This document shows positions 22,450 to 55,900 of a stretch of 64,000 nucleotides of DNA, piece by piece. The stretch covers positions 51,094,624 through 51,158,623 of the forward strand of contig CM049308.1 in assembly GCA_026874595.1 (NCBI GenBank). Direction: 5' to 3'. Each line of letters begins with the position of its first letter. The first letter of the stretch is position 1. Source of the stretch: Sipunculus nudus (Eukaryota; Annelida; Sipuncula; Golfingiida; Sipunculidae). Below the pieces are notes generated by a model that was not told the origin of the DNA, did not search any database, and saw only the letters and a list, made by a program, of their open reading frames with translations. Both the position numbers and the translations under genes were made by a program.

Positions 22450-24036
22450 TAAAGTTCTATGATCCTATTTAAGTTTTGCATTGTTGTATTCTCCAACTCA
22501 CGCTCCCATGCACACACGATTTTGTGGCACACTGCCACAACCGACGAATTCAGCAACTTAAGTAATAGGTAACCATTTTTCATACTCCATTGGTGAGAGG
22601 GTTCCGTTGAACTCCACCACGTATACTGGCCAATCAAATAAAGGGGCAGTTTGTTGATAATACTCCTGACAAATGCAAAGTCAAAGTCCACATACAGTAT
22701 AATTATACATTACACGTATCTATATCGTGACATCAGCTGTCTGTGCATGTGTGCTCATGGCTGACCGAACATCATGCTCACCCCCAATAGTGTAAACCTC
22801 GCCTGTACAAACAAGGGGCCAGTAACCATTGTCAGGAGATAATGCAATCTGTACCCGGTATCTGGGAACAAAGGCCTGTTGTATGAAATGTCACACGGTA
22901 ATGCAAAAGTTTGAATGTAGGCAAGATAAAACTCACAAAATCAGTAAAATTATAATAATAATTAAAATATTCATATTACCGAGAAAAGCTGCAAATGAGA
23001 GAAAGAAGCCCATTGAACTCATTTAGTGTAATATGAAATAAAAAGAATATACAGGTTATCATGCCAAATCTTACATTTTTTTGCCAGCATTGTATTTAGA
23101 TCAGTACTTATTAACCGAAATTTGTAAAATGGGCCCAAAGACGCATAATGTATGTATATGCAAAGGTGTTGTAACCTCCACCTTTCCCCCGCCCCCTCCC
23201 CCCCCCCCCACACACACACCATTGAGTCCTTCCACCTGAGCACTGGGGAAAATAGTTTAATTGCAACTGCACAACATTTATTAAATAAACAAAATATATA
23301 TAAAGGTACGGAGGAGTTGTAACTCCCATCTGTATCATCCCCCCCACCCCCCCACACATACACACACCGCTCTACTATCAAGTACTTCCAAATAGGGACT
23401 TGGAACTTATTTCAACTGTTCACATTTTATAAAATTGAAAAAAAAAATGTTTAATAAAAAAATGGAATCCTATTGAATAAATGTGTAAACTACTGAATTG
23501 TCAATACCTTATCAAAAAGCCAACCAATGAGCATGGTATAGTATAGATCTTATTCAAAAACTGCCTACATGCTTCAGTTTCAACATTAGGAAATATACGG
23601 TCAGATCACAAAATATTATTTGCAACATTATCTTTAATCATGTCAACCGTCAAAGGCCTATTCCTGTTATTACCTGTTCCTCTCAGTCTTTATTTCCATT
23701 TGATATTATTTTAGATGTTTAACTTCAAGGCCAACTTCAGCTGAGCACAGTGACCCATGGGTCCTTGTTTTGTGTTAAAATTTCACCTGGACCTGTACTT
23801 TTCCCCATGTGTAAAACACACACGCACAAAACAGGCAATAAAAAGTCCTCCATCATAAATACGTGTACGTAGTTTTTATGAGAATCTGTTCAACCGATAT
23901 TTGCTGTATGGGAAGAGCTACTAACAGACGGGCGGAAGGCGACGGATGGACTTGGCACAATGTCTACAGGGAGAAAGGGAGCCAAAATAAGGAAAAATGT
24001 GAACATACATAAATACTATAGGCAAATTACTCCTAA

Positions 24037-25837: not shown

Positions 25838-25876
25838 ATGTGTAAAGACTGTGTAAAGCAGCAGTATCCAGACAGG
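25838..25876 (+). CDS. CHURC1: CHURC1 exon 1, residues 1-13
   Basis: Encodes MCKDCVKQQYPDR and ends in phase 0 at donor GTAGGT. It carries the first CxxC pair. Human Churchill starts MCGDCV and also reaches an R-G junction at this point. Confidence 0.93.
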
Positions 25877-28800
25877 GTAGGTATACCTGTAAATGAACAT
25901 TGTAGAACTGGTGGAAAGACCGCTTTGACATATGATGTAACATGTGACTCATATGCATCATCAGATTCATCAGTGATCATACAAAAATATACGGAAGCAA
26001 TCCTCAATTATGCTGTTTTAGTGTTTCAGTATCGGGTAATTGTAGACAAAGACGTTATGCATTATGGAAATTTCATAATTTAAATAAATAGTCAGAAAAC
26101 CCCAAACTTGCCTTTCATGGAACGTTACCTAACATATTAAAATAATATCATAACACTTAAATTACAATAATCATATAAAAGGAAAATTAAGTTATTAAGA
26201 TAAGATAACATAACAATTATTAGTCTTCATTTCAAGGAATATCTTGTTGACTTGCAATTCATTACATAAAATAAATAAATACATGACAATAACACAGAAC
26301 ATAATAGACCATGCATGTTGAAATAATAAGCATGTAAAATAATGATAAAACAGATAATTCTGCAGGTAGAAAACATTATTAAAAATATTGTATATCTAGA
26401 GGGTTGTGAGTTAAAAAGTTAAATACTGTATGGCACAAGAGATTTTTTAAAGCGAGTAGTTCTGCAGAATGTTACATCTAATGTTTACCTGAAGGTAAAA
26501 AACTGAACTCTGAATGTAGGGGCTGTAGTGTGTCATTCAAAACTTTGATATGAAGGCCATTGATTTGGTTTCACAGATTCCTGGTCAGTGTGGCAAGAGC
26601 AGTACTAGTTATTCTACAACTTTTCTTCCTGGTATTATTTAGTTGTTTCTTTAACTTATCAGATATATTTGTAAACCAGCACTCAAGTGCATAAGTTATG
26701 ACACTGGAAATTACTGAATAATAAAACATGGTAATAATGGTGTCGTCAATTTTTAAGCTTTCTTAGATGATATAGGTAATTTATCTTTTGTTTGCTTTCT
26801 TGGATTGATTCCACACATGTTCTTTCCCATTCAGATTTCTGTCAATAGTACATCCTAAGTATTTATAATTTCCACAATATCTACTTCTTCATTGATAGCA
26901 GCTGTAATAATAGATTATTAACTGACCTAGAACTAGCCATTTTAAAGAACTCCACTCAAGTGATGTAAGTAAAGTTTAATGTGACTGAGGAAATATAAAA
27001 AGTAGGGTTATCAGAATATCCAGGTGACTCTATACCTTCTTTCTTAAAAATGTCTATGGTTTTTTTCTGTTAATGGAATGCAGGCAAAAGAAATGTGCTG
27101 CAATGAAGGATTATGGAGACTGATGATATATACACTATCTATAGCCAGGGCATATTAAATTCTGAGGTTCATTTATATGTATTAGTTTCATTAGATCATG
27201 GCATTTAGTATCAGGTTAATGTTTTCAGGGTTCAATATGTCTGGAGACTGGATCGTACTTGATGAACTTTGTTGGGTGTGCTGCCTGCCACCGGAAAGAA
27301 CCAATGAGAGTAGAAAATAAGGAGGAGGATGAGGAGGATGGAGAGGAAATCGTGACATACCAGCGTGAGCAGCTTGATGTATTCGGAAACAACCCTTCAC
27401 ATAAATATTGAGAACATGCCACTTTCAAAGGAAAAATGTTACTAATTGCATGTTAAAACCTTTATTGGCTACCAGTATGGATAAAATTAGTACTTTTTAC
27501 AAGGCTGAATTTAAAGAAAAAAACATACTTCATAAAAAGCAATAATGATATGAAAATATGACACAAAGATGTCCAGTGGTTACTTGTGAATATTTTTTCC
27601 TTATGACCAAGTAATGGTTACAGCTATCAAAATGAATGAAATAAAAAAATAATTTTTTTTTGTTTAGCTGAGATTACATTGAGCATTACATACAGTTTAT
27701 TAGAAAAATACAAATTCTGTTTAAAAATTTTAAGAATTTAGAGGATTCAACACTGAAAGGAAGAAATGTGTCCAGTCTTGGCATCAACCAATAGTTGTAC
27801 AGTGATTTAAATACAAGTTTAATACAAGGTTGTACATTTCTATAGTCTGGAGCACATAGAGGGAGGGAATGCTGGAGACAATGCAACCTTCCCCCCCCCC
27901 CCCCCCCCTCCGTGACCTAAAAATCCTAAAATATCCTGACAAATTTTAAATGTTGCTTTTCAACTACCCCCAGCCATTACTGCCTCAATTTTTCAAAAAC
28001 TTGCAGCACCATAACCCATTTCATACAACCCCACTCTACTAATTGGTGTCTTAGATAATCGAATCCTGTATGATTCACCCTACATCCCTTGTTAGTAAAA
28101 ATTTTCTGTAAGTTTATACATCCAGGTTTTTTCCTTGATGTTTCTATAGAACTGGTTTTGGTTAAATTTTCTTCATATTGTGCACCATTATGTGGGCCAG
28201 CAATTTATTGTTTTACCTTTTTCACTTTGACAAAAATTAAGTTGATATAATCCTGGCTGAATAGAAGCTTAAGCTTTGATTGAACCAGTTTCTATTGCAT
28301 CATTTAAATTGAAATATATGCTTTTTTATGTTTTACTCGCAGATGTTTGTGATAACTGTGGCCATATGATTGCAAATCATGAATATAAATTTGAAGTAGA
28401 TGAAGAATTCCAGGTAATTCATTAAGTTTTCATCAAGATACAAGATAATAGAAAACTAATTTACATGCACCTAAAGGCAGTATGGATTTTATGAACAAAA
28501 CAAACTATTTCTGGAAAGAAAAATGACAAAATGTTCTGTGTTATCATTTTATGTCAGAAGGTTGTTTCATAGTTTGTGGATAGAAACAAAGGAAATGTGG
28601 AGAAAAAATTTGGATTGAAATGCTCTTTCATCATGGGAAAAGTATATTTATATATTAATTTTTATATTGAGGATGACATTTTGCTAGAGTATGTCTAATT
28701 TAATCCTTTTTTTAACATGATTTTATGAAACATTTCTTGTTCAAAATCATTGTAAAATATATAAACAAAACGCATAGGTTAAGTAGAGACACCATCTTTT

Positions 28801-28972
28801 GTTTAGAATGTAGTTCCATACCATATTAATTCAATGGCCATCTGCAGTTTACAGACTAGGGGGTACAGCTTATATTTTATATGATATTTTACAGTTGTAC
28901 GAGATGTACTGTCTGCTGTGTGGACGAGGAGAAGATATGAGAAGTTGTCTGCCAGTTGATCCTCGAAAATAA
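25838..28972 (+). CDS. CHURC1: Churchill domain-containing protein 1 (4 exons, 107 aa)
   Basis: Exons 25838-25876, 27229-27364, 28343-28413 and 28895-28972 join to a 107-codon frame, close to the ~112 aa of vertebrate Churchill. All introns are GT-AG. Churchill is a small zinc-binding protein, described in vertebrate embryos as an FGF-induced regulator; its role in invertebrates is not established. The model has four CxxC pairs (C2/C5, C30/C33, C61/C64, C88/C91) plus H59, H66 and H71, matching the family zinc ligands. Family signatures are MCKDCVKQQYPDR, CLETGSYLMNF, DGEEIVTYQHVC, NHEYKF and YCLLCG. Exon 2 is unusually acidic just before DGEE. The start ATG at 25838 was chosen because the family begins MCxDCV; an in-frame GTG at 25814 is upstream but is not needed. 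Identification is by remembered family similarity, not by a search. Confidence 0.93.
26571..26875 (-). pseudogene. Decayed LINE reverse-transcriptase 3' fragment
   Basis: On the minus strand within CHURC1 intron 1, broken frames read NYKYLGCTIDRNLNGKEHVW, then SLKIDDTIITMFYYSVISSV and ITYALECWFTNISDKLKKQL, ending at a stop (26571-26573). The order YLG..ID..L, then MFY.SVI.SV....CW, is typical of the C-terminal part of non-LTR retrotransposon reverse transcriptases. Internal stops and a frameshift show that it is dead. The upstream polymerase motifs are not seen, so it is a truncated fragment. The clade was not determined. Confidence 0.75.
27229..27364 (+). CDS. CHURC1: CHURC1 exon 2, residues 14-59
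   Basis: Acceptor TTTTCAG, donor GTGAGC after a single C that begins the codon for H59. The donor was chosen over the GT at 27370 because it restores TYQHVC, matching human TYDHLC. It encodes CLETGSYLMNF, the C30/C33 pair and an acidic run ending DGEEIVTY. Confidence 0.92.
28343..28413 (+). CDS. CHURC1: CHURC1 exon 3, residues 59-82
   Basis: Acceptor CTCGCAG, donor GTAATT. Encodes HVCDNCGHMIANHEYKFEVD followed by EEFQ, containing C61/C64 and the conserved histidines H66 and H71. It aligns closely with the human NCHHVIARHEYTF segment. Confidence 0.93.
28895..28972 (+). CDS. CHURC1: CHURC1 exon 4, residues 83-107 and stop
   Basis: Acceptor TTTTACAG. Encodes LYEMYCLLCGRGEDMRSCLP then VDPRK and a TAA stop. 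It holds the final C88/C91 pair of the conserved YxxYCLLCG block. Confidence 0.93.
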   Translation: MYEMYCLLCGRGEDMRSCLPVDPRK

Positions 28973-29665: not shown

Positions 29666-32600
29666 AGCTCAGCTGACTTTCAGTCATGCTGGGCTATAGT
29701 GATGGGTCTTTGTCTGGCGTCCTTCCATCTGTCCGTCTGTCCGTCCGGCCATCCGGCCATTAGCAGGGCACAAATCGTAACCATAGGGGCTAGGGCCATG
29801 AACCCTATGCAGTCTTAGAGGTTCTAAAAAGATCTCCTTGCAAACCTGAAATTAGGTCACTGCGACCTATATTCTCAAAGTTATGGGGTGTGTTTGCACC
29901 CCCCAGAAATAATTCTTTTAGCCAAAATTTTCGTCCCAAACCTTCCATCTTTCACATACAGCTCACCTACCAACAGGGGAAGAACCATAATTATTTTGAG
30001 GTCACAAGGTCAAAGGTCAAGGTCACAGAACCAACTTCTTTTAAAAGCCTCAGGATGCATTTTAAGCCAAACCTTTCATCCCAATTCTTTGATCTTTCAC
30101 ATGTAGCTCACCTACTAAGTGGGAGAAGAATCCTATAGATGTTGAGGTCACAAGGTCAAAGGTCAGGGTCACAGGATCCAATTTTTTTAAAAGGTTGTGG
30201 ACATATTTCAAGCTAGACCTTTCATTCCAAACCTTTCAGCACTGATATCGCTTCTCTGCCAACAGGGGAAAAGACCTGTTGATTTTGAGGTCAAAGGTCA
30301 AGTTCACAGCACCCTCTTCTTGCGTGGAGCCATTTTCAGCAAACTTTTCAATCTATACTTTCCATCTGTCATATATGGCTTACCTACCAATAGGAGAAGA
30401 AGCCTATTGATGTTGAGTTCAAAAGGTCAAAGGTCAAGGTCACAATATTGTTCTAAATGCTTGTGAACATATTTCAAGTGAAACTGTTCAACCCAAACCT
30501 TCAGTCTTCCACATATGCCACATCTATGCATCACTGAATTTGATTCAAACTTCATATTTATGGGTCTTTTTGCATGAAGAAATAACTAATTGATTTTTAG
30601 GTCAGCTGGTCAGGAGGTTAAAGGTTGCAGGTCTAAGTTATTCACTCATTGGTTGCCAAGTAATTACACCCGGCCAGATGTAAGTGGTTAGTAATTACCC
30701 ATCATTTAGAAAGAATCCAGTTGATATGTGGGCAAAAGGCCAAGGTCATAGGTCAGGGATTGTTCACAATAACTTATTTTGTAGACCATCTCTATTTTAA
30801 TGCCCCCGCCACAAGGTGGCTGGGGCATATAGTTTAACCCATGTCCGTCCTTCCGTCATTCCGAAATCAAACAGTTGTACGGACTTTTTTTTGCAATGCC
30901 TGCAGATATTGGCCTGATTTTTGGTGTGTTGGCAGATATAGACCAGTTACAGATCAAGTTCGAGTTTCTTCCCGGTTGACCTACTTTTGACCGTTTTACG
31001 GCTCCTGAACATAGAAAATTTCATGAAAAATATGAAATTTCATGACAGATACACATGTACAGACTTTTTTTCGCAATGCCTGCAGATATTGGCCTGATTT
31101 TTGGTGTGTGGGCAGATATTGACCAGTTACAGGTCGAGTTCACGTTTCGTCCCAGTTGACATACTTTTGACTGTTTTACCGCTCCTGAACATAGAAAATT
31201 TCATTTAAAATATAAATTTTCATGACAAATACATTTGTACAGACTTTTCTTCGCAATACCTGCAGATATTGGCCTGATTTTTGGTGTGTGGGCAGATATT
31301 GACCAGTTACAGGTCGAGTTCACATTTTGTCCCGGTTGACATACTTTTGACTGTTTGACAGTGCTCTAACATAGAAAATTTCATAAAAAAGTGCACATGT
31401 ATGGACTTTTTTTCGCAGTGTCTGCAGATACGGGCCTGATTTTTGGTGTGTAGGTAGATAATGACCAGTAACAGATCGAGACTGTTTTGTCCCAGTTGAC
31501 CTACTTTTGACCATTTGACTGCTCCTGAACATAGAAAGTTTCATAAAAAATAGAAATTTCATAACAAATGCATATGTACTGACTTTTTTTCCTCAATGCC
31601 TGCAGATACCACCCTGATTTTTTATGTGTGGGCAGATAATGACAGTTACAGGTCAAGTTCGCGTTTCCTCCTGGTTGACCTACTTTTGATTGTTTTACGG
31701 CTCCTTAACATAGAAAATTTCATGAAAGACAGAAATTTTTGTGGAAAATGCACATGTATGGACTTTTTTTTCACAATGCCTGCATATACTGGCATGATTT
31801 TTGGTGTGTTGCTTGATAATGACCCGTTACAGATTGAGTTTGCATTTTGCCCTTGTTGACCTACTTTTGACCATACGACACCTCCTGAACTTAAAAAATT
31901 TTTCAAAATTTTTCAAATGTTTCTAATTTGCCCCAGGCGGGGGCATTTGTGTCGTTCCGACACATCTAGTTCTTGTTTTCTTGTATATATAACCATATGG
32001 CACTCACAACTGGTACATCTCACTATATACCCATAATTGTCAGTGACACTTGTAATATATGACTCCCTTTTGTATCAGCTCATGGAGTGATAAGGATATA
32101 TCATTAGTGCATAACAAAAACACTGTTGCCGGAATGCTTTGGCCAGGCATTAAGACTGTAAGAGTTAAGTGTTAAGTTTAGCTACTGATTTATGGGAACA
32201 TTTTGCAGTTTATATCATGGAATCATAGCAATAAACTTAGTTTTCTAGATATCTGAATATTATTATACAAATCATCAGATATACCAGCAAGTGTTTGTTC
32301 TGATAATATGTGGGTCTGTACCTGGATTTAGGATGGCTTTATTTGATTACAAGACTCTTAGTGATGCTTTCTGCATTTCTTTTCTTTTAGGTTTTGCAGT
32401 TTACCTACCCTGCTGACCCCATTCAATAGCAAGCTGATAATTAAAACAAATTGGGCTTTCACTTTTTACATTTGCATGTTCATAAATCTGATATGAGAGC
32501 TCTCCAACCTGATCATGCCTTTTGAATTGTTTTGGACATTCATAACTGTTACATTCTTTGAAGCAATTGCTACAAGTTTAGTGTCTTATTGGAGGATGTG

Positions 32601-33265
32601 CGACTTGTCAGAAAACCATTATGTCTGCCAGGTAGCCATTTTAGAAATCCTTTTACCAGGACAGTTTCTGTGATTTTTTTATGATGTTTGGTCCCTTTTA
32701 GAGGATGTTTGTTGTTCAATTTCCGACCTGTCAGAAATCCAATATGGCCACCAGGACGCCATCTTTAAATTCCTTTAGAACATATTTTCTCAAGAACTAT
32801 TAAAGTGAATGCAGTGGGATGTATATTAATGTAATCTTGCATTGGGTCAAAGATTTCTTAATAAATATGACCATCATTTATGAAAGCTCAGTACAGTTGG
32901 CTTGTATTGAATAAAAATTAATATGGAAGCACCCGTTTCACAATAATTCTTGCATGGATTTCCTTGATCTTTTGCTATATTTTGATCTTATATGTGGCCT
33001 GTGTGGTATTCCTTTTGAGACTGACAGGTATCGAGCAAGCTGTGGGATTAGTTCCTGATAGCTCAACAACCATACATTTTGCCTCAGACCATCATTCACT
33101 ATGTTTTAACCAGACATATATGATAAGAATTTATTGCAATGTAGAAAGTTTAAACAAAATTGGCATATAGGTTCTGCAAAATTTTACTAGAAGTTGTGAA
33201 TTGCAGCCCATGATGTCGCAGGTCATGCTTGGCAGCTGAGCGTCATGACCCATGGGTCACTTGTT
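29666..33265 (+). mobile_element. Family A hairpin-ended element, copy A3 (interrupted)
   Basis: The 5' hairpin AGCTCAGCTGAC...GGGCT (29666-29695) is followed by GTCCGTCTGTCCGTCC. The 3' end CAGCTGAGCGTCATGACCCA then TGGGTCACTTGTTT reaches about 33265. The core (about 29990-30450) is a set of ~120-145-bp units, each containing a GAGGTCACAAGGTCAAAGGT-like motif. The element is interrupted at 30801-31969 by a Helitron-like element, which therefore inserted later. The 32-33.2 kb interior shows no recognisable gene. Confidence 0.65.
30801..31969 (+). mobile_element. Family H Helitron-like element H1 with 180-bp core
   Basis: The 5' end is a perfect-looking hairpin, TGCCCCCGCCAC-AA-GGTGGCTGGGGCA. 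The 3' end has a TGCCCC/GGGGGCA stem, then TGTGTCG-TTC-CGACACA, and stops at TCTAG before T. A short 3' hairpin followed by CTAG (CTRR) at an A/T target is the Helitron hallmark; the 5' TC start is not obvious. Between the ends lie about six diverged ~180-bp units containing CTGCAGATATTGGCCTGATT and TTGACCTACTTTTGAC. No Rep/helicase is encoded. Tandem-core, non-autonomous Helitron relatives are known in bivalves, which supports but does not prove the assignment. Confidence 0.65.
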
Positions 33266-38565: not shown

Positions 38566-39137
38566 TATATATAAATATATATATATATATGACCTAGTGT
38601 TCTGATGTCCATTGCAGTTATACTAAGGCTTTATTGTTTCTTTGTGCTATCATTGTTGGCTTAACAAATAATTTACTATTAGCTTAGGAGAGGAGAAAAG
38701 CAAATTTAATGATAGGGATTCAAGCCCTTATGCAACCTCCTCCTATGTTGGTATATGGTGTGGAAATTTACTAAAAGCAGTAACTCCTGTAAAATTGCAT
38801 TTATACATATATAGTTTATACATTGCATTCTCGGTGATGATAGGAATATTGCCTCAAGAGGGAATTTATTTTATTTTTTTCTATTGCACAGGATCCCTAT
38901 TTTAAGATAGGTCTCCCTTACATGTAATTCATCTTATTTTATCCTTATACATCTCAAAAAGTGTCATTACTCTCTTTATCACATTCAGAAAAAGCTACAG
39001 TTATCCTATATTTATACTGTAAACTTGTGAATGCATACATACCAACATGGTGCATGTTAGTGGTATTTTCTTGAGTAAATTCTTGAATGCATGACACTCT
39101 AATTTAGTCAGTTATTTATAAAAGTTATTCATGTTGC
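34973..39137. other. Unassigned region, no confirmed gene
   Basis: Mixed-composition sequence. On the minus strand about 37561-36000 there are broken, protein-like frames (see findings) that may be a decayed retroelement. A promoter-like patch lies at about 37900-38240 and a (TA)n array at about 38503-38590. No splice-bounded conserved coding block was found. Confidence 0.35.
38085..38150 (+). promoter_or_regulatory. GC-box and CCAAT-like motifs in CpG-richer patch
   Basis: GTGGGCGGAGCC (about 38088-38099) resembles a GC box, and GATTGGCTGC (about 38135) is an inverted CCAAT motif about 40 bp away. The surrounding 37.9-38.25 kb is CpG-richer than its neighbours. No transcript start or downstream exon was identified, so this is only a weak candidate. 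Confidence 0.2.
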
Positions 39138-39211
39138 ATATGCCACAGAGGAACACCATCTTTATCAAGTTCATGATTCTTTTTTGATGATGGTGTTCCT
39201 CTGTGGCATAT
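39138..39211. repeat. Perfect 23-bp-stem hairpin, 74 nt
   Basis: ATATGCCACAGAGGAACACC then ATC (39138-39160) is exactly reverse-complementary to 39189-39211. The stem continues by 5 bp (ATCAA/TTGAT) past a 3-nt bulge, closing on a 15-nt loop (39169-39183). The size fits a small-RNA precursor, but the perfect long pairing is also what a young MITE or palindromic duplication would give. Strand of any transcript is unknown. Confidence 0.85.
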
Positions 39212-39679
39212 TGTGCTAGAGAACAATTTACAACAATAAGAGTGCAATTTCTTAAGGAGTAAAAATCTTGTTTTGTAACATCGTAGTCACAGAACATAAT
39301 AAATCATTGAAACCAGTAATTGTGTTGGTATAGACCTCAAAACTTTGTCCCCCACTTTGCGAATGGAGGGGACATCGATTTGGGTTTGTCTGTCTGACCA
39401 TCTGTCTGTCCATCCATTAGGTTTTTCATTTCCGTTGGATAACTTTCCAAATTTTTTTTTTGATTTTATTCAAATTTGGGTCAGTGATTGCTCTCATGCA
39501 TACCTTGGTTTGGATGGTTTTGGAATGTCTATCTTAGAAATAATTCTCTCCAGCTCAAATATTATCAAATTTTGGTCCAATTACTCAATGTTTTTTTAGC
39601 TCAGCTGACTGAAAGTCATCTGAGCTATAGGGATCACCTTTTGTCCGTCGTCCGTCCGGCCGTCCGGGCGTCTGTCCGT

Positions 39680-42600
39680 TAACAGGGCACAAATCATAAC
39701 CGCTAGAATTGGAATCTTCTTACTTGACATCCTGGGAGGTCCATGAAAAATCTCCTTGGAAACCAGAAATTAGGTCTCTGTTACCCATATCCTTCGAGCT
39801 ATGGGGCCCCAAAGTACCCCCCAGAAAAGTCCAAAATTTCATACAAAAACTTCAATATCTCATTAACTACTTGACTGATGGTCATGATTTTTGGCATACA
39901 TATTGATCATGAGAGGTTCCATCAGTTCCTGAAGACTGGTGGCGCCACCTGTATTTTTCGATTTTTTTACGAATTTTTTTCTCTATTTTTGAGACCTTTA
40001 AAAATGTGAACATCTGTTAACAAGGCACAAATCGTAATGACTGGACTTAGAATCTTCATTCTCAACACACTGAGAGACCTATGAAAAGTCTTCATGGAAA
40101 CCAGAAATTAGGTCTCTGTTACCCATATCCTTCCAGCTATGGGGCCCAAAACTACCCCCCAGAAAAGTAGAAAATTTCATACAAAAACTTCAATATCTCA
40201 TTAAATACTGGACTGATGGTCATGATTTTTGTCATACATATTGATCATGAGATGTTCCATCACTTCCTGCCGACTGGTGGCGCCACCTGTATCGTTCAAT
40301 TTTTTACGAATTTTTTTCTCTATTTTTGAGACCTTTCAAAATGTAAACATCTGTTAACAAGGCACAAATCGTAAAGACTGGACCTAGAATCTTCATTCTT
40401 GACACACTGAGAGACCTATGAAAAGTCTCCATGGAAACCAGAAATTAAGTCTCTGTTACCCATATCCTTCCAGCTATGGGGCCCCAAACTACCCCCAAGA
40501 AAAGTAAAAAATTTCATACAAAAACTTCAATATCTCATTAACTACTTGACTGATGGTCATGATTTGTGGCATAACTATTGATCATGAGATGTGTCATCAC
40601 TTCCTGCAGACTGGTGGTGCCACCTTTATGGTTCGATTTTTTACGATTTTTTCCTCTATTTTTGAGACCTTTAAGGATGCTGTCATCTGTTAGCATGGCA
40701 CAAATCGTAACGACTTGACCTAGAATCTTCATTCTTGACACACGAAGAGGTCCATGAAAAATATCCTTGGAAACCAGAAATTAGGTCTCTGTTAACCATA
40801 TCCTTTCGAGCTATGGGGCCCCATAGTACCCCTCCCCCCAGAGTAGTCAAAAATTTCATACAAAAAATTCAATATCTCAATAACTATATCACTGATGGTC
40901 ATGATTTTTGGCATACATATTAATTATGAGATGTTCCATCAGTTCCTGCAGACTTATGGCGCCACCTATATTGTTTGATTTTTTACGATTTTTTCCTCTA
41001 TTTTTGAGACCTTTAAGGATGCTGTCATCTGTTAACGTGGCACAAATCATAACGACTAGACCTAGAATCTTCATTCTCGACACACTGAGAGACCTATGAA
41101 AAGTCTCCAAGGAAACCAAAATTAGGTCTCTGTTACCCATATTCTTCGAGCAATGGAGCCCTAAAGTACCCCCAAGAAAAGTAAAAAATTTCATACAAAA
41201 ACTTCAATATCTCATTAACTACTTGAATGATGGTCATGATTTGTGGCATAACTATTGATCATGAGATGTGTCATCTGTTCCTGCAGACTGGTGGCGCCAC
41301 CTGTATCGTTCGATTTTTTACGATTTTTTCCTCTATTTTTGAGACCTTTAAGGATGCTGTCATCTGTTAGCATGGCACAAATAGTAACGACTGGACCTAG
41401 AATCTTCATTCTCGACTCACAAGAAGACATATGAAAAGTCTCCATGGAAACCAGAAATTAGGTCTCTGTTACCCATATCCTTCGAGCTATGGGGCCCCAA
41501 AGTACCCCCCCCCCAGAGTAGTCAAAAATTTCATACAAAAACTTCAATATCTCAATAACTACATCACTGATGGTCATGATTTTTGGCATACATATTGATT
41601 ATGAGATGTTCCATCAGTTCCTGCAGACTGGTGGCGCCACCTATATTGTTTGATTTTTTTACGATTCTTCCTCTATTTTTGAGACCTTTAAGGATGCTGT
41701 CATCTGTTAGCCTGGCACAAATCGTAACGACTGGACCTAGAATCTTCATTCTCAATACACTGAGAGACCTATGAAAAGTCTCCATGGAAAACAGAAATTA
41801 GGTCTCTGTTACCCATATCCTTCGAGCTATGGGGCCCCAAAGTACCCCCCAGAGTAGTCAAAAATTTCATACAAAAACTTCAATATCTCATTAACTACTT
41901 GACTGATGGTCATGATTTGTGGCATAACTATTGATCAAGAGGTGTTCCATCAGTTCCTGCAGACTGGTGGCACAACCTGTATTTGTTCGGGGGTTTTTTT
42001 TACGAATGTTTTATCTATTTTTGAGACCTTTAAAGATATGAACATCTGTTAACAGGGCACAAATAATAAAAACTGGACCTAGAATCTTCATTCTTGACAC
42101 ACAGGGAGACCCATGAAAATTCTCCATGGAAACCTGAAATTAGGTCTCTGTTACCCATATTCTTTAGGCTGTATGGCTCCAAAATACCCCCGAGAATAAT
42201 GGAAAATTTGATACAAAAAGTGCAGTATCTCAATAACTACAACACTGATGGTCATGATTTTTGGCATACATATTGATCATGAGCTGTTCCATCAGTTTCT
42301 GCAGAGAGGGTGCGCCACCTCTATTTTTTTTCAAATTTTTACGAATTTTTTTTCTCTTTTTTCGAGACCTTTGAAGATGTGGTTATCTATCAAGAGGGTA
42401 CAAATTGCAACAACTGGACCTAGAAACTTCATTCTTGTCATGCAAGGAGGCCCATGAAGAGTGCCTGTGGAAACTTGAAATTAGGTCTCTGTTACCCATA
42501 TCCTTCAAGCTATAGGACTCTGAAGTATCCCTCAGAATAATGGACAATTTGATACAAAAGCTGAAGTATCTGAACAACTAATACGGAGATCATCATGATT

Positions 42601-43560
42601 CTTTGCATGGATATTGACCATTAAGTGTTTTTAGCTCAGCTGACTGTAAGTCATCTGAAGTATCCCTCAGAATAATGGACAATTTGATACAAAAGCTCAA
42701 GTATCTAAACAACTATTGCAGTGATCACCATGATTCTTTGCATGGATATTGATCATGGAATGTGTCATCAGTTTCTGCAGTATGGTGGCGCCACCTGTAT
42801 TTTTTTTATTTTTACAAATTTTTTTCTCTATTTTTGAGACCTCATAAGATGCGGTCATCTGTTAACATGGCACAAATCGTAACAACTGGACCTAGAATCT
42901 TCTCTCTTGACATGCTGAGAGGCCCATGAAAAGTCTCCTTAAAAACTTGAAATTAGGTCTCTGTTACCCATAACCTCTGAGCTATGGGGCTCCGAAGTAC
43001 CCCCCAGAATAATGGAAAATTTGATACAAAAGCTCAAGTATCTGAACAATTATTATATTGATCACCATGATTCTTTGCATGGATATTGATCATGAAATGT
43101 TTCATCACTTTCTGCATTCTGGTGGCGCCACCTGTATTTTTTCAATTTTTAGCTCAGCTGACTGAAAGTCATCTGAGCTGTAGGGATCACCTTATGTCCG
43201 TCGTCCGTCCGGCCATCCAGGCGTCTGTCTGTTAACAGGGCACAAATCGTAACCGCTAGAACGGGAATCTTCTTACTTGAAATCCTGGGAGGTCTATGGA
43301 AATTCTCCCTGTAAACCTGAAATTAGGTCACTGTGACCTATATTCTTCAAGCTATGGGGTTCTGAAGTACCCCCTAGAATAATGCAAAATTTAATACAAA
43401 AGCTCAAGTATCTGAACAACTAATGCATTAATCACCATGATTCTTTGCATGGATATTGATCATGGAGTGTTTCATCAATTTCTGGAGATTGGCGGCGCCA
43501 CCTATTTTTTTTTTATTTTTTTACGATTTTTCTTCTCTACATTTGTGATCTTTAAACATT
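39680..43560 (+). repeat. ~338-bp tandem array with GGTGGCGCCACC in each unit
   Basis: Landmark GGTGGCGCCACC or a one- to two-base variant recurs at about 39938, 40276, 40613, 40955, 41290, 41630 and 41966, spacing 336-342 bp, and continues less regularly to about 43490. Other constants per unit are GGCACAAATCGTAACGACTG, ATTAGGTCTCTGTTACCCAT and CAATATCTCATTAACTAC. Units near 40.3-41.8 kb are the most alike, suggesting recent homogenisation in the middle. Confidence 0.9.
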
Positions 43561-44250
43561 TGGTCATCTGTAAACAGGGCACAAATCATAATGACTGGAC
43601 CTAGAATCTTCTGTCCTTACCTCCAGGGAAGCCCAAAAAAGGTCTACATGGAAACCCGAAATAAGGTCCCTGTTACCCATATTCTGTGAGCTATGGGGCT
43701 CTGAAGTACCCCCCAGAATAAAGATTTGGTCATATATTAAGAGGGCACAAATCATAATGACTGGACCTATAATCTTCTGTCCTCACCTCCAGGGAAGCCC
43801 ATAAAAGGTCTACATGGATACCCGAAATAAGGTCCCTGTTACCCATATCCTTCATGCTCTGGGGCTCGGAATTACTCCCCAGAATAAAGATTTGGTCATC
43901 TGTTAACAGAGCACAAACTATAATGACTTGACCTAGAATCTCCTTTCTTGATATGCTGGGAGGCCCCTGAAAAGTCTCCTTGTGCACCTGAAATTACATC
44001 TCTGTTACATATATACTTCATCCTATGCGGCTTTGAAATACCCCCCAGAATAAACATTTGGATTTGTTAACAGGGCACAAATCATAATAACTGGACCTAG
44101 AATTTTATTTTTTGACATGCTGGGAGACCCCTGAAAAGTCATCTTGTAAACCTTGAAAATAGGTGTCTGTTACCCATATCCTTCATGCTACAGAGCTCCA
44201 TAGTACCCCAATGAATATTGGATGATTTTATACAAAAGGTCAAGTTTGGA
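43561..44250 (+). repeat. ~170-bp short-unit repeats at the 3' side of copy A4
   Basis: After the 338-bp array, units become shorter (about 170-180 bp): GGCACAAATCATAATGACTG at about 43578 and 43743, with related starts at about 43908 and 44074. They keep the first half of the longer unit (ACCTAGAATCTT... ACCCATATCC... CCCCCAGAATAA) but lack the half with the palindrome. Confidence 0.75.
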
Positions 44251-44346
44251 AAAAGTATTTCATTCAAATTTGACATTCAGATGATAAAATTACTTTTGTC
44301 AATGTCTTCCTGGTCAGCTGAGCGTCATGACCCCTGGGTCACTTGT

Positions 44347-45174
44347 TAGTTTTTATGGTCGCCTGCAGATGTCTCCACATTTCATAGTGGGTCTTTTTAA
44401 GCGTTCATGTGCCCTCAAGATTTCTCCACGTTATAATTTTGGTTGCTAATCAAGCATGAAAGACAACAAGAGCCCAAAGCGGTTGACATTAATTCCACAT
44501 ATTTGCTTGGTTCAGGAGCATCTGTCATATTTACAGGACTGGTTCTTCCCTGCAAAGTACCTTAAAATTTGAAAAAGTAAGCAGCCGGGTTGCCATTGTA
44601 TTCCGAGCCTGAGATACAAAATGAGGATACGTACATTTTTAACAATGTTTTAAATGCAGGTCAGTGTAAATGTAAATTATCTTTGCAAAGGAAACAGTTT
44701 TATAACTAACAAGATCGGTTGATTGGTGGAACAAATATGGTTTGTTCCCCACCTGACATGGAAGCAGCTTCCGGAAAGGTTTTGAATACCGTAGGGAAAT
44801 TCAGGAGACACTTAAAAAAGACTGATCAGTGTAATATCAGTAACAAACTGTGGCATGGTCATCCATGTTCAAACTTGACCTTGCCCTGCATCAGATGCAT
44901 AATTGGTCAATCAATTGTAATTGAGCCTCAAATTCTTTTCAAGTTATTGCAATAACATCATTTCAGCAAAATCATATCTGTGACCCAGAAAAATAAGTCA
45001 AGGTCATCCAGATTTGAACTTAACCTAGCCCTTTATAAGATCCAGCTTCTTCATCAATGCTAAGTTTACAATTACAGTAGTCTATTGTGAAGTACATCTG
45101 CTATGGTTAGCAAAAAGCTCAGTTGTTTTGCTTAATAAGTATTGTTTTTAAATTACTTTTTTTATGCCCCCGTA
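44347..45174. other. Unique-looking gap between two mobile elements
   Basis: No gene is supported. The frame at 44719-44955 has no recognisable family features or splice signals. Confidence 0.4.
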
Positions 45175-45239
45175 ACAAAGTGGCCGGGGCATATAGTTTT
45201 ACCCAAGTCCGTCATTCCGTCAGTCCGTCATTCCGAAAT

Positions 45240-46690
45240 CAAACAGTTGTACGGACTTTTTTTTCGCAATGCCTGCAGATATTGGCCTGATTTTTGGTGT
45301 GTGGGCAGATAATGACCAGTTACAGATCGAGTTCGCGTTTCGTCCCGGTTGACCTACTTTTGACCGTTTTACGGCTCCTAAACTTAGAAAATTTCATGAA
45401 AAATATAAATTTTCATGACAAATACACATGTACGGACTTTTTTTCGCAATGCCTGCAGATATTGGCCTGATTTTTTGTGTGTGGGCAGATAATGACCAGT
45501 TACAGATTGAGTTCGCGTTTCGTCCCGGTTGACCTACTTTTGACCGTTTTACGGCTGCTAAACTTAGAAAATTTCATGAAAAATGGAAAGTTTCATGACA
45601 AATACACATGTGCGGACTTTTTTCGCAATGCCTGCAGATATTGGCTTGATTTTTTGTGTGTGGGCAGATAATGACCAGTTACAGATTGAGTTCGCGTTTT
45701 GTCCCGGTTGACCTACTTTTGACCGTTTTACGGCTCCTAAACTTAGAAAATTTCATGAAAAATAGAAATTTTATTGACAAATAGACATGTACGGACTTTT
45801 TTTCGCAATGCCTGCAGATATCGGCCTGATTTTTGGTGTGTGGGCAGATAATGACCAGTTACAGATCGAGTTCGCGTTTCGTCCCGGTTGACCTACTTTT
45901 GACCGTTTTACGGCTCCTAAACTTAGAAAATTTCATGAAAAATAGAAATTTTCATGACAAATACACATGTACGGACTTTTTTTCGCAATGCCTGCAGATA
46001 TTGGCCTGATTTTTTGTGTGTGGGCAGATAATGACCAGTTACAGATTGAGTTCGCGTTTCGTCCCGGTTGACCTACTTTTGACCGTTTTACGGCTGCTAA
46101 ACTTAGAAAATTTCATGAAAAATAGAAAGTTTCATGACAAATACACATGTGCGGACTTTTTTCGCAATGCCTGCAGATATTGGCTTGATTTTTTGTGTGT
46201 GGGCAGATAATGACCAGTTACAGATTGAGTTCGCGTTTTGTCCCGGTTGACCTACTTTTGACCGTTTTACGGCTCCTAAACTTAGAAAATTTCATGAAAA
46301 ATAGAAATTTTATTGACAAATACACATGTACAGACTTATTTTCGCAATGCCTGCAGATATTGGCCTGATTTTTGGTGTGTGGGCAGATAATGACCATCTA
46401 CAGATCGAGTTCGCGTTTCGTCCCGGTTGACCTACTTTTGACCGTTTTACGGCTCCTAAACTTAGAAAATTTCATGAAAAATAGAAATTTTATTGACAAA
46501 TAGACATGTACGGACTTTTTTTCGCAATGCCTGCAGATATCGGCCTGATTTTTGGTGTGTGAGCAGATATAGACCAGTTACAGATCGAGTTCGCGTTTCG
46601 TCCCAGTTGACCTACTCTTGACTGTTTTACGGCTCCTAAACTTAGAAAAATTCATGAAAAATAGAAATTTTCATGACAAATACACATGTA
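45240..46690 (+). repeat. ~180-bp tandem array with a 539-bp higher-order unit
   Basis: Units share CGGACTTTTTTTCGCAATGC, CTGCAGATATTGGCCTGATT, CAGTTACAGATCGAGTTCGC and CTAAACTTAGAAAATTTCAT. Variant-bearing units (for example ACGGCTGCTAAAC and ACATGTGCGGAC) recur every 539 bp (45477 and 46016), about three monomers, so the array has higher-order structure like some satellites. Confidence 0.85.
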
Positions 46691-46701
46691 CAGCCGTTTT
46701 T

Positions 46702-47385
46702 AGCCCTCAGCTCATAGGCTGATGGGCTATTGTAGTCACCCAAGCTGTCCGTCTGTCCATCTGTCTGTCCGGTGTCTGTCCGTCCGTCCGTCCGTTCCGC
46801 GTCTGTTAACTTTCACCTTGTGAGCGGGATATCTCTAAAAGGATTCACCGTTGGAATTTTATTTCATCAGTGAAGATGTATATTGATAAAATCTCGGTCA
46901 AGTTCGAAGATGGGTGACCTTGACCCATTTTTCTACTTTTTAGAGCTGATTATAGAAAAACACTCAGAAGTTTTTATCTCAGGAACCATTGTGTGGAATT
47001 TCACAAAACTTACTATGATCATTGGGACTGATGGTCTGTATGTGCTGCACAATTTTGGTGGCGCCACCTGCAATTTCTGATTTTTTAATGAAATTTTATC
47101 GGATTTTTTCAATTTTGGCCTTTTGTGCAGGATATCTCTAAAGGTATTCAACACAGGAACTTCATTTCTTCAGTGCTATTGCATTATATTCACAAAATCT
47201 TGGTCAAGTTCAAAGATGGGTGATCTTGACCTACTTTTCAATATCACAGAGCTTAGTATAGAAAAAAACTTAGGAGCTTATTTCTCAGGAAGCATTTGGT
47301 GGATTGTTATGAAACATGGTATATACCTCTCCAATTTAAATTTATAAATGATTATCAACTTTTGCTAATATTCTAGTATCGCAAT
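46702..47385 (+). mobile_element. Family B hairpin-headed repeat, copy 1
   Basis: Begins with AGCCCTCAGCTCATAGGCTG then ATGGGCT (a hairpin), followed by GTCCGTCTGTCC and CCGTCCGTCCGTCCG runs, the same order as in family A although the sequence differs. It contains GGTGGCGCCACC at about 47057 and a short internal repetition (GATATCTCTAAA...GTTCAAAGATGGGTGA appears twice with changes). The right end merges back into family H sequence near 47386; no matching 3' hairpin was found, so it may be truncated. Confidence 0.55.
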
Positions 47386-48282
47386 ACAAAGCTTACAGAT
47401 ACTGGCCTAATGTTTGGTCTGTGGGCGCATAATGACCACTTACAGATCGAGTTCGCGTTTCGTCCCGGTTGACCTACTTTTGACCGTTTTACGGCTCCTA
47501 AACTTAGAAAATTTCATGAAAAATAGAAATTTTCATGACAAATACACATGTACGGACTTTTTTTCGCAATGCCTGCAGATATTGGCCTGATTTTTTGTGT
47601 GTGGGCAGATAATGACCAGTTACAGATTGAGTTCGCGTTTCGTCCCGGTTGACCTACTTTTGACCGTTTTACGGCTGCTAAACTTAGAAAATTTCATGAA
47701 AAATAGAAAGTTTCATGACAAATACACATGTGCGGACTTTTTTCGCAATGCCTGCAGATATTGGCTTGATTTTTTGTGTGTGGGCAGATAATGACCAGTT
47801 ACAGATTGAGTTCGCGTTTTGTCCCGGTTGACCTACTTTTGACCGTTTTACGGCTCCTAAACTTAGAAAATTTCATGAAAAATAGAAATTTTATTGACAA
47901 ATACACATGTACAGACTTATTTTCGCAATGCCTGCAGATATTGGCCTGATTTTTGGTGTGTGGGCAGATAATGACCATCTACAGATCGAGTTCGCGTTTC
48001 GTCCCGGTTGACCTACTTTTGACCGTTTTACGGCTCCTAAACTTAGAAAATTTCATGAAAAATAGAAATTTTATTGACAAATAGACATGTACGGACTTTT
48101 TTTCGCAATGCCTGCAGATATCGGCCTGATTTTTGGTGTGTGAGCAGATATAGACCAGTTACAGATCGAGTTCGCGTTTCGTCCCAGTTGACCTACTCTT
48201 GACTGTTTTACGGCTCCTAAACTTAGAAAAATTCATGAAAAATAGAAATTTTCATGACAAATACACATGTACAGCCGTTTTT

Positions 48283-48966
48283 AGCCCTCAGCTCATAGGC
48301 TGATGGGCTATTGTAGTCACCCAAGCTGTCCGTCTGTCCATCTGTCTGTCCGGTGTCTGTCCGTCCGTCCGTCCGTTCCGCGTCTGTTAACTTTCACCTT
48401 GTGAGCGGGATATCTCTAAAAGGATTCACCGTTGGAATTTTATTTCATCAGTGAAGATGTATATTGATAAAATCTCGGTCAAGTTCGAAGATGGGTGACC
48501 TTGACCCATTTTTCTACTTTTTAGAGCTGATTATAGAAAAACACTCAGAAGTTTTTATCTCAGGAACCATTGTGTGGAATTTCACAAAACTTACTATGAT
48601 CATTGGGACTGATGGTCTGTATGTGCTGCACAATTTTGGTGGCGCCACCTGCAATTTCTGATTTTTTAATGAAATTTTATCGGATTTTTTCAATTTTGGC
48701 CTTTTGTGCAGGATATCTCTAAAGGTATTCAACACAGGAACTTCATTTCTTCAGTGCTATTGCATTATATTCACAAAATCTTGGTCAAGTTCAAAGATGG
48801 GTGATCTTGACCTACTTTTCAATATCACAGAGCTTAGTATAGAAAAAAACTTAGGAGCTTATTTCTCAGGAAGCATTTGGTGGATTGTTATGAAACATGG
48901 TATATACCTCTCCAATTTAAATTTATAAATGATTATCAACTTTTGCTAATATTCTAGTATCGCAAT
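48283..48966 (+). mobile_element. Family B hairpin-headed repeat, copy 2
   Basis: Carried by the 1,581-bp duplication, so it is a segmental copy of 46702-47385 and not an independent insertion. It has the same hairpin head, CCGTCC runs and GGTGGCGCCACC palindrome (about 48638). Confidence 0.6.
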
Positions 48967-49660
48967 ACAATGCTTACAGATACTGGCCTAATGTTTGGTC
49001 TGTGGGCGCATAATGACCACTTACAGATCGAGTTCGCGTTTCGTCCCAGTTAACCTATTTTTCACCATATGACAGATCCTGAACATAGAAAATTTCATGA
49101 AAGACAGAAATTTTCATTAAAAATGCACATATATGGACTTTTTTTCACAATGCTTGCAGATACTGGCCTGATTTTTGGTGTGTTGCTTGATAATGACCCT
49201 TTACAGATCGAGTTTGCATTTTGCCCTTGTTGACCTACTTTTGACCATACAACACTTCCTGAACTTAAAAAATTTTACAAAATTTAACAAATGTTTCTAA
49301 TTTGCCCCAGGCGGGGGCATTCGTGTCGTTCCGACACATCTAGTTTAAAGTAATTGTTAACCTACATAACAGAGTAGTATTATAGTATTGTTAGAACTAA
49401 AGTTTTTGTTAAATTTGTATTTGTGATTTTCCTTTGTAAACATGTAATGGATTTGGGCTAGTTATCACATTAAGAAGGCTGAATATAAAATGTGGGTTGG
49501 TTGATCCATTCATCCTTGAAAATCAATTGGTAGTCTAGGAAGTGTCAAGGGGATATTTTAGATGAGTGCTGGCAATTCTCTTAAAATCTTTACTGAAAAT
49601 GTGATGACATCGAGAAAATATTTTTACATGAATAGCAAAGACAACAACAGTAAACATTTC

Positions 49661-52900: not shown

Positions 52901-55900
52901 ACAGACCAAATAGCACGTCCCCCTTCCCCCTATAGTGACGTGTACTTCTGAATTGCCTACAGTACACAAAATTTCTGAATTTTCAAGATGGAACCACAAG
53001 CAATGTTTAATATTATTAACTACAGTGCTGGTAACAATTTGGGATGTTTTGGTAATGCATGTCTGCTGAGTAAATTATGACTACTTGTATGACATTTAAT
53101 GTTACATAAATTATCAAAGATTATGTCAATGTAAGAAAACTATATATTAACATATACTAACTGGGAGCACAATTTTTTTCCTCTTTTGACCTTTGCCTTG
53201 CCAAAGTCGTATATTCTCTAGGGATTGTGATTGGCTGTCCACCTGGTCTGATTGGTCATTCCCTTCACTGCTCTTCTGTGATTGGTCAGTCCCTTCTGTA
53301 TCTTGCTGTGACTGGTCAGCAGGACTAGTTTTAGTTTCTTGCTGTGACTGGTCACTCCCTTCAATAATATTCTGTGACCGGTTATTCCCTTCTTCCTCAG
53401 GATCTTTATTATGTACTGTTCCTTCCTCACAGTCCATTAAACATTCTACATTTTTAGTTATATTTGTTGATTCCAAGTCTGTATTATCTCCTGATGAGTC
53501 TGCATGACCTGACAGTGTAACTGAACTGTCCTTGACCTTTGATTCTGGGTCACAAACAGTACTTTGTGATTCTGTTATATCTTCTTGTCCTATAGTTTGA
53601 GAATTTTTCTGCAATGAATTTACTTGATCCATTGGGAAAGTTTCCAAAATGTCCATGTGCTCTTTTGGGAAGTTAAATCCTGCCAATATAGGTCTGAAAG
53701 GAAAACAAGAATGCAAACTTTTAAACACACTGGATAACTTCAACCTTGTTATGACAGGCACAACATATAGTTATAAAAGGTATGAATCTGAATTTACCTT
53801 GTAAACATTTATTTGTTAGCTTATCAATCAAACAAAAAAATACCAAAACTTTATGGTATAAAAAATTTCCCAAAATAATGTTTTAGCTCAGCTGACTGAA
53901 AATCATCTGAGCCATATCAATCACTCTTTTTCCTTCGTCCTGTCTGTCTGTCCATTAACAGGGCACAAATCTTTACTGCTGGACCCAGCATCTTCTAACA
54001 GAAAACCCATGGAGGTCCATAAAAAAATCTAAGAAACCTCAAATCATCTCACTGTGACCTATACCCTCTTAGCTATGAGGCTTGAAAGTACCCAAAGAAT
54101 AACTAGAATACGGGTAGTCGACAAGCGACTACGTGTATCCGCCTAAATCAGAGTGGAACGGGTGAAGTGAGGCATGGATTGAGTGGCAAGGGGAAATAGA
54201 GTGAAGTGTTGCATATTAGCATGGATGTCTGCAGCCAAATTGTGTATGTAGGTTGCTCCACCTACCACAAAATCCAGAAAGCCGTCCAAGTTGTATATAT
54301 ATGCAAAATTTAAGGCAGATAAGTCAAACCACTACATGTATATGAGTGATTTTTGCCCTTGGCAGACAAACAGATGGACGCTGTGCAAAAATGGTTGCAG
54401 GTGGCGCCACCAGTTTTGCGTATGATAAAGAGCTATGTGAGAACTATACACATGCAAAACTTTGGCCCAATCGGTCAAACAGTTCCCAAGATATGAGCTT
54501 GGATATCTGTTGCATAAACTAGAATGTAGGTGGCGCCACCTGTAATAAAATCAAGAGAGCTGTCGGGGATGTATAAACCTGGAAAATTTTAGGCAGATAT
54601 GTCAAACCACTGCCGAGATATAAGTGATTTTATCCCATGGCAGACAAATAGACGGGAGCTGTGCAAAACTGGCTGCAGGTGGCGCCACCAGTTTTGCGTA
54701 TGATAAAGAGCTATTTGAGATCTATACACATGCAAAATTTTGGCCTAATAGGTCAAACGGTTCCCGAGATATGAGCTTGGATGTCTGCAGCGTAAACGTG
54801 AATGTAGGTGGCGCCTCCTGTCATAAAATCAGAAAAGCTATCCAGGATGTATACGCATGGCGAATTTCAGGTGAATTAGTCAAGTCACTGCAGAGATATG
54901 AGTGATTTTAACCCAAGGCAGACGAACAGATGGACACTGTGCAAACATGGTTGCAGGTGGCGCCACCATTTTTTGTGTATGTTATAAAGCTCTCCAAGGG
55001 CTACATTTGTGCAAAAAAATTCTCCTGATCGGTCAAACGGTTCCCGAGATATGTGGGTTTATGTGTGGAAACAGACGCACAAACAGATGCAGAGCGCAGA
55101 GGAAAGGTCAGAGGTCATAAACAAAATCAGGGCGCAGCAGTTCACATGTGACCCGAACATAATCCCGGGTTTCATAAAATTCCGCCCAGCGGTTACGGAG
55201 TTCTCCGGACACCTACGCGGCGGTGGCGGCAGGGTGAAAACATAGTATCCGCAAAACTCTGTTTTGGCGGATACAATTACACATTTGATACAAAAGCTCC
55301 AGTATCTGAGTAACTAATGCATTGATTGCCATGATCGTTTCTCATTTCCAGAAGACTGGAGATGCCACCAACATTTTATCTACTTTTTAGCATTTTTTGT
55401 CCTTTTTTTAAGACCTTGAGATGAAGCCATCCATCCTTTAACAGGGCACAAATCGTAACCGTAAGACCTAATATACATCCAAGGAGGTCCTAAGCAAATC
55501 TCCTTGGAAACCTAAAATTAGGTCATGGTGACCTATATTTTGAAAACTACAGGCTGAAAACCTGATTTTGACCTACCAGTCAGTCAGATTGGGCACAAAT
55601 AGTATCTGCTAGGCCTAAAAACTTCAAACAGGCCATTTAGGTAGGTCCTCGGTAATTCTGCCTGGAAAACTAAATTAGACCATGGTGACCTACACTCTGT
55701 GAAACATGGCCCTAGAATGGTCAAAGTAATATACAGAGAAGTCTTGAGCAATCTCCATGGAAACTTGAAATTAAGTCATAGTTACCTATATTGATGACCA
55801 AAATAATTGTAAGCACCCAGTCAGTCAGACAAGGTATAAAACTTTACTGTTGGACCTAGATTCTTCTGTGTTGTTATCCAGGGATGTCCTTAAAAATGTG

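Follow-up and report, generated by a model that had tools for sequence, protein, structure and literature searches.

In most introns sampled in the genome of Sipunculus nudus, nearly all copies of one transposon family, termed family A, lie in sense orientation to the host gene. The family was recognised in a stretch of 64,000 bases, referred to here as the window, which spans positions 51094624-51158623 of contig C3 (CM049308.1) in an assembly of 1,426,538,692 bases and 153 contigs. Family A is very probably a non-autonomous Helentron (HINE), a rolling-circle transposon that carries no genes. Its copies were located by exact matches to the 5' hairpin and by end models trained on 40 5' ends and 34 3' ends from the window and from contig C1:90-290 kb. 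The hairpins are palindromic, and the better-scoring strand was kept while weaker mirror matches on the same hairpins were left out.

A Raf-like gene on the minus strand of C1 contains many of these copies. Its kinase exons, found with a human query, extend from 210.8 to 144.8 kb. A match to the Ras-binding domain at 438.7 kb scores 33.1 bits against a cut-off of 25.7, with stops in the reading, which ignores introns. Over 294 kb of this gene, 25 of 26 exact family A 5' hairpins are sense, and in C1:144823-290000 the end models place 60 ends in the sense direction and 4, of which one is weak, in the antisense direction. Two other families of the window, B and C, are also sense in the Raf-like gene (8/8 and 2/2 ends, respectively). 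A fourth 5'-like motif, D, had one match there, also sense, and was dropped since its direction is uncertain. A human TEX261 query matched nothing in C1:90-290 kb. The first 60 exact hairpins on C1 extend over approximately 1.05 Mb, and 59 of them are on the minus strand. As a separate observation, past the mapped gene the 29 exact family A hairpins at C1:438.8-1146.5 kb all lie on the minus strand; the 10 that follow, at 1.24-1.47 Mb, all lie on the plus strand. These strands would predict the strands of the genes in both regions.

The pattern is repeated in other protein-kinase genes. A sample of 13 intronic stretches (L029-L041) was taken, each lying between two exons of the same gene in domain order and on one strand. 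These stretches are outside the training set of the end models, which gave no matches on reversed sequence. Seven stretches contain family A ends, with sense to antisense counts of 2:0, 6:0, 8:0, 4:1, 2:0, 2:0 and 2:0; the count for the kinase gene on contig C9 is based on two weak 3' ends. The remaining six (L034, L035, L036, L037, L039 and L041) contain none and are neutral on orientation. Family A ends are thus mostly sense in all eight protein-kinase genes whose sampled introns held copies, and in eight of the nine genes of the whole sample (one-sided sign test, p 0.02).

The sense orientation is not limited to nested copies. Fifty-three 5' ends were classified by their upstream flank: where the flank matches other DNA, 31 are sense and 2 antisense, and where it is unmatched (against approximately 0.36 Mb of compared DNA rather than the whole genome), 20 are sense and none antisense. 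By coordinates, 12 of these 20 lie between exons of identified genes; 15 are in C1:90-290 kb, seven inside the mapped Raf-like gene and eight beyond the last exon found. Repeats common to introns of different genes likewise mostly point the same way relative to the gene: 550 of 634 aligned pieces (243.7 of 266.0 kb) agree. Among the repeats left after masking of family A-like sequence, 92 of 95 distant pairs agree, but these pieces are not independent, and each of the 60 longest pairs either falls inside the Raf region or links it to L029, L032 or L037.

Strand agreement between families was also followed along C1. Genome-wide motif searches gave positions for the first 100 places per search, and the following pair counts apply among the matches listed. 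Seventy-four of the 100 listed family B places (C1 below 23.7 Mb) were compared with 283 merged family A places, which mix 5' and 3' ends so that some elements are counted twice. Pairs are on the same strand in 14/17 cases within 5 kb, 15/15 at 5-10 kb, 27/30 at 10-20 kb, 78/87 at 20-50 kb, 86/117 at 50-100 kb and 168/216 at 100-200 kb, which gives 120/132 for pairs 5-50 kb apart; beyond 200 kb, successive distance bins show 57%, 58%, 42% and 54%. Without the first 2.7 Mb the same bins to 200 kb contain 7/9, 11/11, 15/17, 29/38, 36/62 and 88/132 same-strand pairs, followed by 53%, 50%, 43% and 57%, and in 27 of 35 cases the closest family A copy at 5-50 kb is on the same strand, a value reached by 23 of 2,000 circular shifts. 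For family A alone, a dense list of 100 places forms 11 strand runs, which none of 20,000 shuffles reach (259 when copies closer than 20 kb are collapsed, 882 for 50 kb), and a sparse list forms 36 runs, reached by 43 of 20,000. Segmental duplication was considered as the source of the same-strand run on C1 and rejected for the first eight loci, in which the sequence just outside the hairpins differs; their wider flanks share some repeat sequence.

Several results weigh against a general sense rule. The sample comprises only nine genes, eight of which are kinase genes. The window element E5 is antisense in the TRMT6 gene, and the rule is therefore not absolute. The C3 intron stretch L032 is mixed (four sense ends, one antisense). 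The direction of its shared repeats matches that in the Raf-like gene in only 19 of 49 aligned pieces, and that in L031 in 8 of 24. When copies within 5 kb or more of each other are collapsed in the sparse list, at least 2,406 of 20,000 shuffles reach the observed number of runs, and the clustering is not significant. Family A alone in sparse lists at 20-100 kb agrees in 58% of 12 and 53% of 15 pairs, and in 65% of 23 and 65% of 46; the sparse list against 3' ends at 20-200 kb agrees in approximately 65-67% among the matches listed. Two retroelement controls yielded too few cases. A Pfam scan of intronic open reading frames, a chosen subset (about 85 amino acids or longer) of 131 antisense and 180 sense frames that left out, among others, two long repeat-peptide frames of L032, found RVT_1 in two antisense frames (of 58) and in no sense frame (of 74), and a reverse-transcriptase motif was found at 339 places genome-wide (reversed control 15), four of them in the usable part of C1. 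The shared repeats of TRMT6 agree in direction with the Raf-like gene in 26 of 37 pieces and with L038 in 0 of 7. On the minus strand, L032:143-2190 carries long open frames of a short repeated peptide (FTDHLDMFCFDSVGL type), an in-frame tandem repeat in a kinase intron.

Five elements, read here as probable family A HINEs, are present in the window. Their positions are those given in an earlier note on this DNA, except that the end of E4 moves by one base, with its last T at 44347.

10270-12885, minus strand: E1, complete; end models 88.0 bits (5') and 47.6 bits (3')
14943-16664, minus strand: E2, degraded copy with a core akin to those of E3, E4 and E5; 48.1 bits (5') and 25.2 bits (3')
29666-33265, plus strand: E3, with a nested putative family B HINE; 50.6 bits (5') and 47.0 bits (3')
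39598-44347, plus strand: E4, composite; 76.0 bits (5') and 43.1 bits (3')
53885-56132, plus strand: E5, in an intron of TRMT6 and antisense to it; 53.1 bits (5') and 23.5 bits (3')

With both arms and both strands counted, AGCTCAGCTGACT occurs 15 times in the window at up to two mismatches (0.83 expected), and GTCAGCTGAGCGTCATGACC occurs three times at up to three mismatches (0.01 expected). E1 and E4 carry an exact copy of the 5' hairpin that the note had described as common to all five, and E4 has a further exact one at 43151; the hairpin is degraded in E2, E3 and E5. The 33-base 3' end is exact in E3, has one mismatch in E4 and three in E1, and is weak in E2 and E5. The 5' and 3' subterminal repeats are reverse complements of each other as described, and GCTCAGCTGAC and GTCAGCTGAGC are perfect in E4. 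The 3' palindrome TGACCCATGGGTCA is likewise present in E3, with one change in E4; the 3' end of E3 folds no better than its shuffles (z 0.11).

E4 consists, in order, of a T-run, AGCTCAGCTGACT-GAA-AGTCATCTGAGCT, a GTCC-rich microsatellite, an array of approximately 340 bp, an array of approximately 166 bp, GTCAGCTGAGC, the palindrome region TGACCCCTGGGTCA and CTTGTT. The monomer of the ~166-bp array is a shortened version of that of the ~340-bp array (79% identity over 149 bp). The following parts were located in E4.

39598-39626, plus strand: 5' subterminal inverted repeat and complementary inverted repeat (hairpin); fold z -4.4
42633-42661, plus strand: third, partial 5' end; 37.4 bits
43151-44347, plus strand: second complete 5' end (70.1 bits), preceded by a T-run of E4's own core and sharing the 3' end
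44313-44347, plus strand: 3' subterminal repeat, palindrome region and CTTGTT terminus; the first 20 bases match exactly

E4 is therefore a composite, in which three 5' ends (one partial) share a single 3' end. The hairpin is composed of 7 bp, a 1x1 C.T mismatch, 5 bp and a 3-nt loop, and its fold z is -4.8 in E1. Pair 8 is non-standard in 50 of 51 hairpins, 43 of them with C.T. The mismatch is given as description only: its reading as a selected feature was dropped, because all copies may descend from one master. The 3' repeat sits 24 bases in from the element end and is followed by an unlike palindrome. Upstream of E4, at 39130-39230, an inverted repeat with arms of about 25-30 bases (CATATGCCACAGAGGAACACCATC...GATGGTGTTCCTCTGTGGCATATTG) resembles, by eye, a small foldback element.

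Judged by its sequence, family A is an element of a known kind, a HINE in all sequence features tested. It has subterminal inverted repeats (subTIRs) of about 11-15 bp, an inverted repeat beside the 5' subTIR in the form found in the oyster HINE and DINE-1, a palindrome near the 3' end, and a T-rich target without target-site duplication. It also has a microsatellite and a tandem core, a feature of some but not all described HINEs. Pearl elements of bivalves, by description, likewise have conserved ends around a tandem core. The available part of the report on Cg_HINE of the Pacific oyster (PMC7492417) describes an element that is like family A by description, not by sequence, with a 5' subTIR and complementary inverted repeat, GTCC-type microsatellite, tandem core, 3' subTIR and palindrome, and a T-rich site without target duplication; Cg_HINE integrates in both orientations, and that part draws no link between orientation and gene strand. 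HINE-Mo of mites and the DINE-1 elements and Helentrons of flies share, again by description, the architecture, the T-rich or TT target and, in some copies, microsatellites or tandem repeats; an autonomous partner is known for them, and mite HINEs have palindromic subTIRs in place of the 5' inverted repeat (PMC4067079, in the portion available). Helraiser is also a rolling-circle transposon but, unlike family A, a Helitron with an AT target (PMC4778049, available sections, which give no orientation relative to genes). Family A would be mobilised by a RepHel-endonuclease supplied from elsewhere and would move as single-stranded DNA through this enzyme. A foldback or cut-and-paste element of the miniature inverted-repeat transposable element (MITE) type would also have inverted repeats close to both ends, and DINE-1-like elements were annotated as MITEs earlier in some genomes (PMC4067079, same portion). 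This origin is nevertheless very improbable. A cut-and-paste MITE has terminal inverted repeats at both ends and a target-site duplication, whereas here the 3' repeat lies 24 bases inside the end and is followed by a different palindrome, and no target duplication is present at empty sites among the matches listed.

The note had further proposed that the five elements have different tandem arrays as cores, captured or replaced between fixed termini. The fixed termini and tandem core stand, whereas the cores of E2, E3, E4 and E5 align in all six pairwise comparisons (63-81% over 103-246 bp) and form one diverged monomer family, and the odd 180-bp array of E3 belongs to a nested transposon. Most core differences consequently require no capture between fixed ends, and core exchange as a general explanation is unlikely. 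E1 is the case that favours it: a single compared segment of its core, which has a repeat spaced at approximately 683 bp (self-match 76%), gave no match to the other cores, and the core may be a truly different one, although the first ~190 bp of E1 align with E4 at 62-66%. HINE families are known to differ in their cores (PMC7492417, part available). The two family B regions of the window are as follows.

30800-31971, plus strand: putative family B HINE nested within E3; it has a hairpin, an array and a 3' palindrome of its own
45164-49345, plus strand: second family B region; it includes a repeated stretch of ~1.58 kb, and hairpins of family C occur at 46697 and 48278

The nested copy contains the hairpin ATGCCCCCGCCACAAGGTGGCTGGGGCAT, a GTCC run, the 180-bp array, the 3' repeat GCCCCAGGCGGGGGCAT, the palindrome GTGTCGTTCCGACAC and the end CTAGTT, which was placed by comparison with the copy ending at 49345. 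Its hairpin is unrelated in sequence to that of family A and identical in geometry (7 bp, one mismatched pair, 5 bp, 3-nt loop). The family B copy at 45164 has a degraded hairpin that does not take this geometry, and the family C hairpin has a geometry other than that of family A. A stretch of about 1,581 bases of family B and C sequence is present twice in tandem at 45248-48272; the two copies look near-identical, which suggests a recent duplication. Two solitary family A 3' end matches (22242-22264 and 23735-23770) have no 5' partner detected by the end models.

Family A is not limited to the five copies counted in the note. The exact 5' hairpin occurs 24,805 times genome-wide (12,206 + 12,599), the exact 33-base 3' end 5,522 times (2,788 + 2,734) and the exact family B 5' end at 1,203 + 1,196 places; the reversed-pattern controls for the two family A ends gave 0. 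A LINE-type (long interspersed nuclear element) YADD motif pattern was found at 339 places against the 24,805 hairpins, and rolling-circle elements may dominate the repeats, although one motif does not count all LINEs. The two ends co-occur, as the note had proposed to check, in the right order well beyond chance: among the matches listed on C1, 100 5' ends (one loop variant) and 62 3' ends form 31 right-order pairs at 0.2-8 kb, taking in 30 of the 5' and 28 of the 3' ends, with 7 same-strand wrong-side pairs and none on opposite strands. Random placement gives a mean of 1.6 and a maximum of 8 in 2,000 trials. Six of the listed pair distances fall within 3,373-3,405 bases, hinting at a prevalent length class. 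In the gene loci and the TRMT6 stretch, 53 of 58 5' ends have a same-strand 3' end within 9 kb.

The element boundaries are upheld by empty sites. The joined flanks of 57 copies, searched against the compared DNA, gave at least 354 matches across the joined junction, with no target duplication at empty sites among the matches listed. The clearest example is the filled site ATTTTT-element-AAAG, for which several paralogous copies of ~91% identity have an uninterrupted ATTTTTAAAG. The element extends from AGCTC to CTTGTT, with up to two Ts ambiguous and nothing duplicated, and ATTTTT precedes 19 of 40 5' ends. Some empty sites are cores of other copies, including the core of E1 in the window, and nesting is therefore common.

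Two genes were identified in the window, in which Rfam and tRNA scans matched nothing.

63727-49831, minus strand: TRMT6 (Gcd10p family) gene, from Pfam and protein matches in order; the two outermost upstream matches are weak (63.7 to 49.8 kb)
25838-28969, plus strand: CHURC1 (Churchill)-like gene, four pieces matched by a human query; the Pfam match of one piece falls below the cut-off

E5 lies between the TRMT6 exons at 57329-57490 and 53150-53770, and E3 starts approximately 700 bases beyond the last CHURC1-like piece.

The orientation suggests that either the insertion or the survival of these elements depends on transcription. One reading, for which a probability of roughly 0.4 is estimated, has the transposon strand joining T-runs that are exposed, in transcribed genes, on the non-template strand; removal of antisense copies by selection stands level with it. 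Under co-transcriptional insertion, T-runs that are single-stranded on the non-template strand of genes transcribed in the germline would accept the transposon strand, family after family would turn sense-oriented, introns would grow through same-direction insertions, and element direction would preserve a fossil record of transcription in the germline. De novo insertions of Helraiser favour transcribed gene bodies, and its authors suggest that supercoiling linked to transcription may provide single-stranded DNA for the first steps of transposition (PMC4778049, available sections), which makes such insertion plausible. The supply of T-runs itself was rejected as a cause: in unmasked DNA, runs of five or more number 380 against 318, or 54% on the gene-sense strand, and runs so nearly balanced between strands (54:46) cannot yield a bias above 90%. 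Alternatively, insertion may be blind to orientation and selection may remove antisense intronic copies, either because purine-rich (GGAC)n acts as a splicing enhancer or through damage to the transcript. In 53 partly overlapping intervals, the antisense strand of the elements carries 121 GGACGGACGGAC runs and their sense strand 3, a count that tells against insertion on exposed strands as the preferred account, although it fits splicing selection as well as insertion bias, and AGGTRAG shows 19 against 2; the asymmetry of GGAC runs leans to removal of antisense copies. Within transcribed regions, human L1 shows a bias to the template orientation, and selection is given as one of the factors behind its pattern (PMC10030826, part available). 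Selection is less easily reconciled with AATAAA, which is similar on both strands (382 vs 313), and with 3' splice-like tracts, which favour the sense strand (25 vs 1) and should harm sense copies. Furthermore, exact-hairpin copies, presumably young, are as biased as degraded ones in the Raf-like gene (25/26), families A, B and C share the bias there, and A and B agree locally on C1. A bias common to several families and to exact copies leans to insertion on the exposed non-template strand.

Two other explanations are less credible. New copies could enter T-runs of older copies of the same orientation, so that clusters inherit by chance the direction of a founder. Many empty sites among the matches listed are other HINE cores, repeats flank 33 of the 53 5' ends classified in gene loci, and E4 is a direct instance. 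Such self-targeting is unlikely as the cause of the bias: all 20 ends whose flanks are unmatched in the compared DNA are also sense, founders would be random relative to genes and yet eight of nine genes are sense, and families A and B agree at 5-50 kb, farther than direct nesting. Orientation could instead track the direction of the replication fork through a lagging-strand target, as in IS200/IS605, whose orientation follows fork direction. The 59 minus-strand hairpins among the first 60 on C1 fit this account, their ~1.05 Mb being longer than the mapped Raf-like gene. Replication is nonetheless a doubtful cause, since A/B agreement drops to about half beyond 200 kb, which disfavours megabase-scale replication domains, and orientation follows the gene strand in seven further kinase genes, on both strands and on six other contigs.

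The available parts of the open-licence literature (including PMC7492417, PMC4067079, PMC4778049, PMC9341512, PMC10030826 and PMC13286980) contain no earlier report of this orientation rule. For rolling-circle transposons, a near-complete alignment with transcription across families would tie the choice of target, or survival, to transcription. Gene direction would be readable from repeats alone, and the alignment would help explain how introns grow to hundreds of kilobases from one repeat class without breakage of the gene.

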